Source of the DNA: Spirochaetae bacterium HGW-Spirochaetae-3
GTDB taxonomy: Bacteria > Spirochaetota > Spirochaetia > Treponematales > UBA12059
Length of the DNA stretch: 64,000 nucleotides
NCBI GenBank assembly: GCA_002839315.1
Contig: PGXV01000003.1
Location: forward strand, 62,001 to 126,000
Direction of reading: 5' to 3'
Shown: in pieces, positions 24,138 through 62,065 of the stretch
Layout: every line of letters begins with the position of its first letter
Position numbering within the stretch: position 1 is the stretch's first letter
Notes under the pieces: generated by a model
The model's database searches: none
What the model was told of the DNA's origin: nothing
The model's input: only the letters and a program-made list of their open reading frames with translations
Position numbers and translations under genes: made by a program

Positions 24138-24189
<52 letters not shown>

Positions 24190-24211
<22 letters not shown>

Positions 24212-24276
24212 AAAAGACCCGTTCCGCCCTTCGGGCGGAACGGGTCTTTTTATTAGGGCCCAGCTGGACTTGAACC
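24190..24276. repeat. Giant palindrome: tRNA-Ile2 3' end plus terminator, inverted
   Basis: The 21 bases 24256-24276 are the exact reverse complement of the tRNA 3' end at 24190-24210. With the A5/T5 tracts and the terminator stem between them, the arms 24190-24229 and 24233-24276 pair over 40 bp, interrupted only by four extra bases (ATTA, 24252-24255) in the right arm. A read-through transcript could fold the T-arm and acceptor 3' strand of the tRNA into this helix instead of the cloverleaf. Confidence 0.9.
24216..24252 (+). terminator. Strong terminator directly after tRNA-Ile2
   Basis: GACCCGTTCCGCCC pairs perfectly with GGGCGGAACGGGTC (14 bp, 3-nt loop) followed by TTTTT. It begins 4 nt after the tRNA. 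The stem continues outwards into the tRNA sequence (see the palindrome entry). Confidence 0.93.
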
Positions 24277-24482
24277 TAAGCATGCGCCGAGCGATAGCGA
24301 GGAAAAGCGCCCATGGATGGGCGCGTAAGCATGCGAAGGCGGGCTGGAGAACCGAGACAGGATGTCGAGGTTCGGAAGCCAAGTCCAGGCCCCGCGCGGA
24401 GCGAGGGGCTCACGGAAAGGCCCGGCTCCGTGGTTGGGGCGGAACGGGTCTTTTTAATTAGGGCCCAGCGGGACTTGAACCT
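24233..24482. repeat. Direct repeat pair enclosing the tRNA-downstream element
   Basis: The right arm of the palindrome (24233-24277) recurs at 24437-24482 in the same orientation with one added base and one substitution (T to G in the inverted tRNA part). The 159 bp between the copies contain the conserved structured element (24280-24334) and a second hairpin near 24349-24374. The copies resemble duplicated target or attachment ends of a small inserted element (inference). Confidence 0.8.
24280..24334. repeat. Structured element, copy 1 (tRNA-Ile2 side)
   Basis: Outer stem GCATGC (24280-24285) with GCATGC (24329-24334). Then comes a 21-nt joining segment (24286-24306) beginning GCCGAGCGA and containing GCGAGGAA. 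The inner stem GCGCCCAT-GG-ATGGGCGC is at 24307-24324, followed by a 4-nt joiner GTAA. Copy 2 lies at 61613-61669 behind tRNA-Gly with identical segment lengths except one extra outer base pair. The differences between the copies in both stems are compensatory. Confidence 0.75.
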
Positions 24483-24515: not shown

Positions 24516-25403
24516 CTAAGCGATCGAGGCCAGGTAGATGCTTTGTATCGATTCATCGAGGACCCTATCGAAATCCGCCTGGGTCTGACCTACGTTCAAA
24601 CCTTCAGACAAGGCCCTGGAGAAACTGGCTATCAACCTATGGTTTCTGGCTAGTTTCGCGTTGGCTTCTTCACGAGAATATCCCCCTGATAAAGCGACGA
24701 CCCTTAGAACGCCAGGTAACTCTAACAGCTCTTCATAGAAGTTATCTTCCTCGGGGATAGTCAGCTTCAGCATGACCAGGGTTTGGGAATCCAAGGATTT
24801 CAAGCGCTTCAGCAACTCAACCTTGAGAATCCTTTCTGCCCCCTGTTTATCGGGAGCGGAAATATCAACCTCCGGTTCGATGATGGGAACCAGGCCCGCG
24901 GCAGAAATGATCCTGCCAAACGCGAACTGTTGGTCTACGACGGCCTTAATCCCGGCTTCGTTCGCCTCCTTGATGACCGACCGCATCTTGGTACCGAAAA
25001 CATGCCGCTCTTTTGCCCGTTTAAGAAGATCTTCCAGGTCAGGAATGGGTTTCATTAGTTGGCACCCGTTTTCTTTATCCGCAAGCCCCTTGTCTATCTT
25101 CAGGAAGGTGACGATCCCTTTAGTTTCCCAGAGATAATCAGCGCTGAATAGACCTCGTACCTTCGAATCCATGGTCTTTTCAAAAAGAATCGCCGCCAAG
25201 ATCCTCTCTTTGGTAAATCCGGGACTTTCCATGATGCGAGACCGCATCGCATGTATCAACTCGTACATCTCTACGTCGTTCTTATAGGCGCTTTTCTTAA
25301 TACCGTAGGCTTCCAAGGCCTTGGGCGTACTGCCTCCGCTTTGATCCAGCGCGGCGATGAATCCTTTTCCGGTTTTCATTCGTTCCAGCTGCTTCATGTT
25401 CAT
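24516..25403 (-). CDS. fda: Fructose-bisphosphate aldolase class I
   Basis: Cleaves fructose 1,6-bisphosphate via a lysine Schiff base, without a metal. The 295-residue protein starts [20 protein letters not shown] and has [22 protein letters not shown] (lysine region), [10 protein letters not shown] and the C-terminal [17 protein letters not shown]. This is the bacterial class I type known from staphylococci and a minority of other bacteria. ATG 25403 is preferred because GGAGG sits 5 nt upstream and would lie inside the coding sequence if the upstream ATG 25415 were used. Base composition is visibly lower in GC than the neighbours, and the 3' end lies only 33 bp from the tRNA-associated repeat, which suggests acquisition at this tRNA site (inference). 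Confidence 0.93.
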
Positions 25404-25530
25404 AAAGACCTCCATAGGATCCTGATCCTTATTAAAGATACTGATTTATTGGAAGGACTTATTATCAGGGGCTCGCTTTATGATGGTATCATGCGCTTGG
25501 TTCTCTCGGCTATCTCGGGCGCAACTCGCC

Positions 25531-60735: not shown

Positions 60736-61266
60736 ATGAGGAAGAGACGACATCTTGTACGAGGAGCCTGCTATCATGTTACGATGAGGGCGAACCGGAA
60801 GGAGATGATTCTGGATGCTCCAGGTATTAAGGCTCTATATATCCAGGTTGTCCGAGAAGCACGACTTCGGTATCGGTTCAGAATAGATAATTTCACGATA
60901 ATGGGAAATCATGTACATCTGCTTATCAAGCCGGAAGAGAATGAGTGCTTATCTAGGATTATGCAATGGATAAATAGCGTCTTCGCTATACGGTATAACA
61001 AATTATTCGGATTATGCGGGCATGTCTGGGGAGAGCGGTTTTATTCTCTAATTCTAGCTCGACTACAGGATTATATTCGTGTTTTCAAGTACATAGACGA
61101 GAATCCGGTAGCTGCGCATTTAGTACTATTCGCAGATAAATGGGTATTTGGAGGCTTATTCCATTCCAGAAAAGGGATTTGGACTGTTCTTTCGCCTCCG
61201 ACACTGCTTCTTTGCTTGCTATTCCCAAGACATCTGCCGAATTCGCTCATGACGAAGAAACGGTAG
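60736..61266 (+). mobile_element. REP-associated (Y1/HUH) transposase, RAYT type
   Basis: A 176-residue single-strand DNA transposase of the Y1_Tnp group. The N-terminus RKRRHLVRGACYHVTMRANR is typical of the REP-associated branch; FTIMGNHVHLLIKPEEN contains the HUH metal motif (His-Val-His), and RVFKYIDENPVAAHLV is the conserved C-terminal segment with a tyrosine. Unlike IS200, RAYTs are usually single domesticated copies that mobilise short palindromic repeats. The gene is much more AT-rich than its surroundings, so it is probably imported. It lies between the rnf terminator palindrome and the tRNA-Gly locus with its palindromic element. Confidence 0.88.
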
Positions 61267-61477: not shown

Positions 61478-61548
61478 GCGATCGTCGTATAACGGTATTA
61501 CCCGAGCTTCCCAAGCTCGTGACGCGGGTTCGACTCCCGTCGATCGCT
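61478..61548 (+). tRNA. tRNA-Gly (anticodon CCC)
   Basis: A 71-nt cloverleaf: acceptor GCGATCG/CGATCGC, anticodon arm CGAGC-TTCCCAA-GCTCG with anticodon CCC, T-arm GCGGG-TTCGACT-CCCGT. Discriminator base T; CCA is not encoded. The D-arm (GTATAACGGTATTAC) is short, as in other glycine tRNAs. Confidence 0.93.
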
Positions 61549-61610
61549 AGACGATAAAACCCCGGTAACCCGGGGTTTTGTCGTCTATAAGCGCCGACGG
61601 GAGTCGAGCC
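61527..61610. repeat. Palindrome: tRNA-Gly 3' end plus terminator, inverted
   Basis: 61595-61610 is the reverse complement of the tRNA T-arm region 61527-61542 (15 of 16 bases), and the terminator stem lies between. As at tRNA-Ile2, the right arm contains a small AT insertion (61587-61590, ATAA) at the junction of terminator and inverted tRNA sequence. Confidence 0.8.
61549..61586 (+). terminator. Terminator hairpin directly after tRNA-Gly
   Basis: AAAACCCCGG pairs with CCGGGGTTTT, and the stem extends outwards through AGACGA/TCGTCT (17 pairs including one G:T). It starts at the first base after the tRNA. Confidence 0.85.
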
Positions 61611-61731
61611 GAGGAGCGCGCCGAGCGAATGCGAGGAAGAGCGGCCATGGATGGCCGCGAAAGCGCTCCGAGGCGGCGCGAAGCGGCCAGGAGGGCGGCG
61701 AGCATAGCGGATTCCCGTCTATAAGCGCCGA
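61582..61731. repeat. Direct repeat pair enclosing the second structured element
   Basis: CGTCTATAAGCGCCGA occurs at 61582-61597 and again at 61716-61731. The following inverted tRNA part is recognisable but degenerate in the second copy. The 118 bp between contain the structured element 61613-61669. The layout is the same as at tRNA-Ile2. Confidence 0.75.
61613..61669. repeat. Structured element, copy 2 (tRNA-Gly side)
   Basis: Outer stem GGAGCGC (61613-61619) with GCGCTCC (61663-61669); 21-nt joining segment (61620-61640) identical to copy 1 at 18 positions; inner stem GCGGCCAT-GG-ATGGCCGC (61641-61658); 4-nt joiner GAAA. The inner stem differs from copy 1 by a C-to-G change on one arm and the matching G-to-C on the other. 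The outer stems differ in sequence but both pair. Confidence 0.75.
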
Positions 61732-61771: not shown

Positions 61772-62065
61772 TTATTCGACGGTAAACGTTACGTAGGCGC
61801 CCTTCGGGGAGCGTTCGGATATGTCGAGAGATTCGACACGGGCGCCCGGAGGTCCGTGGTTCAGCCAGGAAACGTAGCGGTTGATCGCCGATTCGGAACC
61901 TTCGGCGTATGTTTCTACGCCTCCGTCGGGGAGATTGCTGATCCAGCCGCTGATACGAAGCGAACGGGCGATTGAGCGCGCTTCGTATCTGAACCCGACG
62001 CCTTGAACGCGGCCCCGAACCAGGGCGAGTATCGCTTTTCCGCGTTCTTCGTCACGTTCCTGCAT
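61772..62065 (-). CDS. acyP: Acylphosphatase
   Basis: Hydrolyses carboxyl-phosphate bonds of acyl phosphates. The 97-residue protein has ILALVRGRVQGVGFRYEARS (phosphate-binding loop with catalytic arginine) and GWISNLPDGGVETYAEG (catalytic asparagine), and ends VTFTVE. It overlaps the upstream response-regulator gene by 14 bp, so it is the third gene of a small operon with two receiver-domain proteins. Acyl phosphates can phosphorylate receiver domains, so the pairing may be functional (inference). Confidence 0.93.
   Translation of the reverse strand: MQERDEERGKAILALVRGRVQGVGFRYEARSIARSLRISGWISNLPDGGVETYAEGSESAINRYVSWLNHGPPGARVESLDISERSPKGAYVTFTVE

Follow-up and report, generated by a model that had tools for sequence, protein, structure and literature searches.

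Miniature structured repeats behind tRNA genes of Spirochaetota, with arms that match the host tRNA

Integrases directed to the T-loop use tRNA and tmRNA genes as targets and leave direct repeats that begin in the T-loop and extend to the 3' end of the tRNA. The element described here, found behind a tRNA gene of Spirochaetae bacterium HGW-Spirochaetae-3, shares with the tyrosine-integrase islands and prophages of this kind the target genes, the crossover region and the T-loop-to-3'-end direct repeat, but it is about 110-190 bp long, has no genes, carries an inverted copy of the host T-arm and occupies dozens of tRNAs within one family. Such islands keep to one target tRNA per family; the hosts of the element comprise about 30 different anticodons and tmRNA, and similar cores occur at different tRNAs of one genome.

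Insertion of the IS200 type produces no target duplication. REP, BIME and REPIN sequences with their RAYT resemble the element as short folded non-coding repeats spread within one genome, and it differs from them in its position behind tRNAs, its host-matching arms, its direct repeats and the frequent lack of Y1_Tnp in its carriers. The palindromes of REP/RAYT systems are tagged with GTAG or CGTC, according to PMC3733652, and inspection by eye of our alignment of genus copies (A5) revealed no conserved tag of this kind beside the palindrome. Integron attC sites and cassette arrays likewise show conservation of structure over sequence, a strand-specific fold, tandem units and a last arm supplied by the neighbour; the arms of the element, in contrast, match a tRNA, gene cassettes and an integron integrase (IntI) were not seen, and of the attC boxes RYYYAAC/GTTRRRY, inspected by eye only, GTTRRRY is absent. 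The T-shaped terminal hairpins of parvovirus type (rolling hairpin) also place a branched hairpin in a common stem, and fold-back copying there writes inverted copies of the neighbour, but this is an analogy of shape, the element having neither a known Rep protein nor a terminal position. MITEs are miniature and non-coding and have inverted terminal repeats that belong to the element, and an autonomous parent. The inverted repeats of the present element are host tRNA sequence, its arms match the host tRNA and not each other, its direct repeats vary in length and no parent was found.

We know of no element that rewrites its own ends to suit a host gene. The Rfam search gave no match to the element, with only tRNA and SRP RNA above the gathering score. 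The open-access full-text literature yielded no description, and an earlier one is possible in the subscription journals that lay mostly outside this search. The family is apparently undescribed so far. It is set apart from the known kinds by the tests that failed for these families and by the proposed rewriting of its arms; should an integrase prove to mobilise it, the element would be placed more fairly among tRNA-integrating mini-islands.

The locus behind tRNA-Ile2 and its fold

The window, that is the whole stretch of DNA analysed, comprises 64,000 nucleotides (positions 62,001 to 126,000 of contig PGXV01000003.1). The host gene has the anticodon CAU and is labelled Met by ARAGORN; its sequence suggests that it is tRNA-Ile2. 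The features of the locus are as follows.

24138-24211, + strand: tRNA(CAU), the host gene (ARAGORN, RF00005)
24190-24211, + strand: T-loop to 3' end of the tRNA, source of the inverted and direct copies
24211-24251, + strand: spacer between tRNA and element, a terminator hairpin (19-bp perfect inverted repeat)
24253-24276, + strand: left arm and 5' strand of P1, in which the T-arm and acceptor end of the tRNA are copied in inverted orientation (96% over 24 nt)
24262-24390, + strand: complete structured element, covariance-model match (134 bits, E 1.8e-24; model R1 derives in part from this copy itself, and blastn independently ties the copy to others)
24280-24285, + strand: 5' strand of P2, GCATGC, with the 3' strand at 24329-24334 (fold and covariation)
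24287-24302, + strand: P3 hairpin with tandem G.A mismatch (fold and covariation)
24307-24324, + strand: P4 hairpin, GCGCCC-ATGGAT-GGGCGC (fold and covariation)
24342-24382, + strand: hairpin P5, containing a tandem G.A mismatch and overlapping at its base with the start of the T-arm copy (fold and covariation)
24380-24388, + strand: 3' strand of P1, a direct tRNA T-arm copy CAAGTCCAG, decayed past 24388 (sequence; direct-repeat statistics)
24437-24482, + strand: second copy of the terminator right arm and inverted T-arm, with no core (sequence, repeat search)

A sequence-only reading of this DNA had described 24190-24210 as the exact reverse complement of 24256-24276 around the terminator, and we confirmed this. 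In the repeat search the two arms comprised 24190-24213 and 24253-24276 (24 nt, 96% complementary) and flanked the terminator hairpin, the left arm terminating in a conserved GAACC. The third T-arm copy, CAAGTCCAG, had been overlooked; it pairs with the inverted copy and thereby closes the enclosed segment into a single folded unit. The recurrence of the right arm in direct orientation at 24437-24482, also described before, was found again (91% across 34 nt, with an A inserted), and this stretch is either a remnant of a second unit or a duplicated target.

An aldolase gene (24516-25415) adjoins the Ile2 element. In the congener G001 it adjoins an array of elements behind tRNA-Pro (L258, G001:C135) in the opposite orientation. 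Travel of the gene between tRNA sites, from Ile2 in the source genome to tRNA-Pro in G001, was rejected on account of this orientation, and for the same reason the Ile2 comparison yields no orthologous empty site.

In the core, stem P2 encloses hairpins P3 and P4, hairpin P5 comes next and P1 closes all of them; P3 and P5 contain tandem G.A mismatches and the loops of P4 are A(N)GGAT-like. Alignment A5 holds 45 genus copies and was fitted to the model, which biases it toward the structure; in it the covariation score was 0.517 against 0.140 when shuffled, 35 of 45 pairs had changed on both sides, and the covariation collapsed when the pairing partner was slid by one column. A GCC/GGC pseudoknot adjoining P2 was dropped, since P2' and P3 compete for the same bases.

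Pair statistics were taken from 126 copies with P1 excluded, with the stems of 192 tRNAs at these loci as the reference. G.T made up 1.5% of standard pairs in the element compared with 6.6% in tRNA stems, the G.T:C.A counts were 56:27 compared with 114:7, and GC<->CG swaps accounted for 52% of pair differences compared with 25%. There were 506 G.A mismatches against 13 of T.C, which marks the tRNA-sense strand as the folding strand. Taken together, the rare wobble pairs and the G.A mismatches on that strand argue that the fold probably forms at the level of DNA. These statistics favour, rather than prove, a single-stranded-DNA fold or arms that were copied from one another, and the low G.T could come partly from high G+C or concerted arm copying.

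The same data bear on the idea of a functional structured RNA at each tRNA, spread by duplication and serving as a regulator, an antisense to the tRNA 3' end or a 3'-end processing element. The strong conserved fold, the strand-specific G.A pairs on the tRNA-sense strand and the orthologous copies kept between some species suit such an RNA, whereas the rarity of wobble pairs relative to tRNA, the frequent position past the terminator, the patchy occurrence at any given tRNA, the lack of an Rfam match and the copies at ordinary intergenic sites in the genome G368 do not, and we regard it as improbable. The suggestion, made in the sequence-only reading, that a read-through RNA unfolds the tRNA was not borne out, given an element often behind the terminator and a G.T:C.A ratio of 2:1 against 16:1 in tRNA stems, besides the G.T fraction of 1.5%.

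A family with host-matched arms

The 159-bp segment enclosed at Ile2 proved to be one member of a repeat family with a non-coding core of ~110 nt. The order within a unit is tRNA, spacer or terminator, inverted T-arm copy, core, and direct tRNA copy from T-loop nt 57 to the 3' end. A blastn search with the segment against the whole 3.88-Mb genome gave matches behind tRNA-Asn, tRNA-Gly, tRNA-Leu and tRNA-Val. Inspection of 42 tRNA flanks in this genome located inverted T-arms at a similar distance behind the tRNAs for Asn, Cys, Glu(CTC), Gly(TCC), Gly(CCC), Leu(CAG), Ile2, Pro(CGG), Val(TAC) and Ala(GGC), and degenerate forms behind the tRNAs for initiator Met and Gly(GCC). At the last two (L045 and L035) the inverted T-arm lies past the terminator with no intact core, and these may be excision scars.

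One further copy lies in the window, at a place (61527-61731) that had been pointed out as a related site and that indeed holds the same element.

61478-61548, + strand: tRNA-Gly(CCC), behind which the second copy lies (tRNA search)
61595-61610, + strand: inverted copy of the tRNA-Gly T-arm (repeat search)
61596-61719, + strand: second element copy, its 3' arm decayed (72.6 bits at E 1.7e-11; 92.5 bits when scored with model R2)

All 10 significant matches (E<1e-3 in 3.88 Mb) of model R1, built from three copies, lay directly behind tRNA genes of the source genome and on the tRNA strand, one of them behind a tRNA-Ala 3' half; this is far beyond chance. The earlier concern that other tRNA genes might lack the structure is answered: of this genome's 43 tRNA genes, about a dozen have an element or a remnant. 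The others have none, and occurrence behind only some of the tRNA genes fits an insertion element.

Three matches, L076, L117 and L145, were considered as exceptions to the tRNA placement and dismissed: L117 and L145 follow tRNA remnants, and L076 (G000:C8:156235) follows the 3' half of tRNA-Ala(CGC) in the source genome. On another contig (L025, G000:C15:21111) tRNA-Ala(CGC) is followed by a phage-type integrase gene, consistent with a tRNA apparently split by a prophage that spans the two contigs.

All eight genus genomes were carriers, with 4-17 copies per genome in the eight congeners; one genus copy lies behind tmRNA (L088) and the rest behind tRNAs. The order sample contained 71 carriers among 116 genomes (33 of 52 genera) with up to 20 copies per genome. 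The phylum sample contained 47 among 296, chiefly of the same order with a few in other orders and classes, counts that are lower bounds since fewer candidates per genome were scored than in the order sample. The sequence-only reading had proposed a small element, mobile or structural, that makes use of the tRNA 3' end. The wide range of host genes supports this, and the search that it had recommended, for many tRNA loci with inverted copies of their own tRNA, found them. The same reading had also considered a fold-back assembly artefact. This is excluded by the same clean anatomy in several independent genomes, including the single-contig G023 (4,059,867 bp) and G019 (3,239,340 bp).

The arms follow the host. 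Over 82 first units, the 10-nt arm matched its own tRNA at 8.93 of 10 positions and the tRNAs of other amino acids at 5.55 of 10, and in 68 of the 82 no other tRNA matched better than the own one. Within one genome, cores at tRNAs that carry different amino acids shared 75-87% identity, whereas their arms shared only 20-70%, and most arms in these pairs matched their own tRNA 10/10; among the pairs listed for G023, the Met, Arg, Gln, Glu and Trp arms each did so. The cleanest copies form a tandem pair of nearly identical 139-bp units behind Arg(TCG) of G023, reading GGTTC/GAGTCCTGCCGGACGCA-TTAG-GGCAGGACTC-GAA-core-GGAGGGC/GAGTCCTGCCGGACGCA. These comparisons establish the anatomy of the unit, its status as a family and the matching of its arms to the host. 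The nearest neighbour of a core was in the same genome in 30 cases, at the same tRNA in 16 and neither in 32, and we therefore do not claim a pure within-genome spread.

Gain, loss and the mobilising activity

In 51 of the 82 first units the direct repeat starts at nt 57 and reaches the tRNA 3' end or beyond, mostly stopping 0-21 nt past it. In the operon Ser(TGA)-Ser(GCT)-Arg(GCG)-Ser(CGA)-Ser(GGA), empty intergenic gaps measured about 12-110 nt and filled ones 170-470 nt; which of the tRNAs are filled varies among genomes, and Arg(GCG) was without an adjoining element in every intact operon examined. Compared with the empty operon of the source genome, G007 had direct repeats of 26 and 39 bp, of which 8 and about 20 nt are native flank; few sites allow a filled/empty comparison with clear native flank. 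Elements are present or absent between related genomes, and tandem arrays occur. No fresh insertion was caught within any species, so mobility is deduced by comparing one species with another. Vertical stability is seen in some copies, that at Ala(GGC) being 98% identical between species, which would equally fit a function kept by the host.

Variable-length direct repeats with one end fixed are what a retro-inserted RNA, a bacterial counterpart of SINEs placed by target-primed reverse transcription at the T-loop, would leave. Against it, the pair statistics are DNA-like, none of the eight congeners has an RVT_1 gene though each carries 4-17 copies, and 57 of the 71 order carriers are without one. 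Retrotransposition by an RVT_1 enzyme was rejected for the genus, and the reading as a whole is scarcely credible.

An IS200-like Y1 transposase gene (60736-61266; RAYT-like, PF01797), the sole Y1_Tnp gene in the source genome and with its domain confirmed, immediately precedes tRNA-Gly(CCC) and the second copy. A REP/BIME-like repeat moved by a RAYT such as this would agree with the short, palindromic, non-coding form and with a fold specific to one single strand. Y1_Tnp is missing, however, from 32 of the 71 carriers, including a single-contig genome, with no association (Fisher p 0.13); none of the other Y1_Tnp loci retrieved carries an element copy, and the direct repeats are at odds with IS200-type insertion. 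We rejected RAYT as the mobiliser and consider this reading very improbable. Both RVT_1 and Y1_Tnp are missing from 28 carriers, among them the single-contig G019 and G079.

Tyrosine recombinases were too common for an association based on presence. In a mini-island moved by a phage-type tyrosine integrase, the core would hold the integrase binding sites, crossover would fall in the T-loop and the direct repeat would be attL/attR. The extent of the direct repeat and the tRNA and tmRNA targets agree with T-loop-directed integrases, and a prophage integrase is found behind tRNA-Ala(CGC) in the source genome. There is also one case of inversion between inverted T-arms: in L104 (G002:C126:7718-7845) the core is inverted relative to tRNA-Leu(CAG) between two T-arm copies. 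A three-unit array behind tRNA-Met in G023 (L139:861-2700) has its third core broken by an insert of about 1.7 kb, followed by another T-arm copy, and the insert contains an integrase-like ORF, truncated, besides other small ORFs. No integrase was seen inside intact copies. The truncated ORF lies outside any otherwise complete element, and the broken-core island that bears it was the nearest thing to an autonomous version among 105 tRNA flanks, where none was found. Moreover, an island would supply the tRNA end itself, whereas each of about 30 anticodons has retained its own tail and arm, and the direct repeat can take in native flank. An integrase-driven mini-island is thus unlikely, though the best of the alternatives considered. 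Phage and plasmid searches gave no element copies, nor did IMG/VR with four patterns, and carriage by phage or plasmid was rejected.

The placement behind tRNAs across the genome and the order, own-arm matching, covariation, filled and empty sites, direct repeats, tandem units, DNA-like pairs, the one copy inverted between its arms and dispersed deltaproteobacterial copies all support the reading that we favour with modest confidence, a miniature, non-coding, apparently non-autonomous mobile DNA repeat that targets T-loops and has ends copied from the host tRNA. From these data we infer movement as DNA with templated rewriting of the arms. The tRNA-sense strand would fold while single-stranded, and the core would insert into the T-loop behind GTTC; pairing there could join the conserved TTC of the loop to a conserved GAA that borders the core. 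The host tRNA would survive through duplication of nt 57 to the 3' end, and the inverted arm would be copied from it by hairpin templating, either as fold-back synthesis or as correction of a quasipalindrome. The activity that mobilises the element probably acts from elsewhere, in trans. A bolder form of this reading, a candidate that falls short of probable, is a self-retargeting DNA element: with a folded single-stranded core that enters the universal T-loop and ends that are rewritten from the host by hairpin-templated synthesis, one family could occupy any tRNA or tmRNA without killing the gene. If the favoured reading is correct, it would describe a widespread class of miniature bacterial element that takes its ends from the gene upstream of its landing site, and a new way for a selfish element to use essential, highly conserved targets harmlessly. 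Its occurrence in complete single-contig genomes and MAGs makes mobility and mechanism testable.

A pattern scan of 84,980 species genomes found the element almost solely in Treponema and other Spirochaetota MAGs, with two deltaproteobacterial MAGs and one betaproteobacterial MAG in addition, the last a possible contamination. The deltaproteobacterial MAGs had 39 and 15 matches. Some were behind tRNA-Ser, -Glu, -Asn, -Pro and -SeC; the remaining copies, mostly from G368, occupied ordinary intergenic sites, each with an arm-spacer-arm pair of its own, and the non-tRNA copies L225, L239 and L253 carry direct repeats. Confinement to sites downstream of tRNAs therefore fails outside Spirochaetota. 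The element copies at Ser-tRNAs in L100 (G006:C122) have an extra palindromic insert of ~65 nt in the P4 loop. In Spirochaetota the element may account for assembly breaks at tRNA genes, and in G368 identical copies stand at contig ends (L234, L235, L237), probably reflecting a recent burst that also caused the assembly to break.
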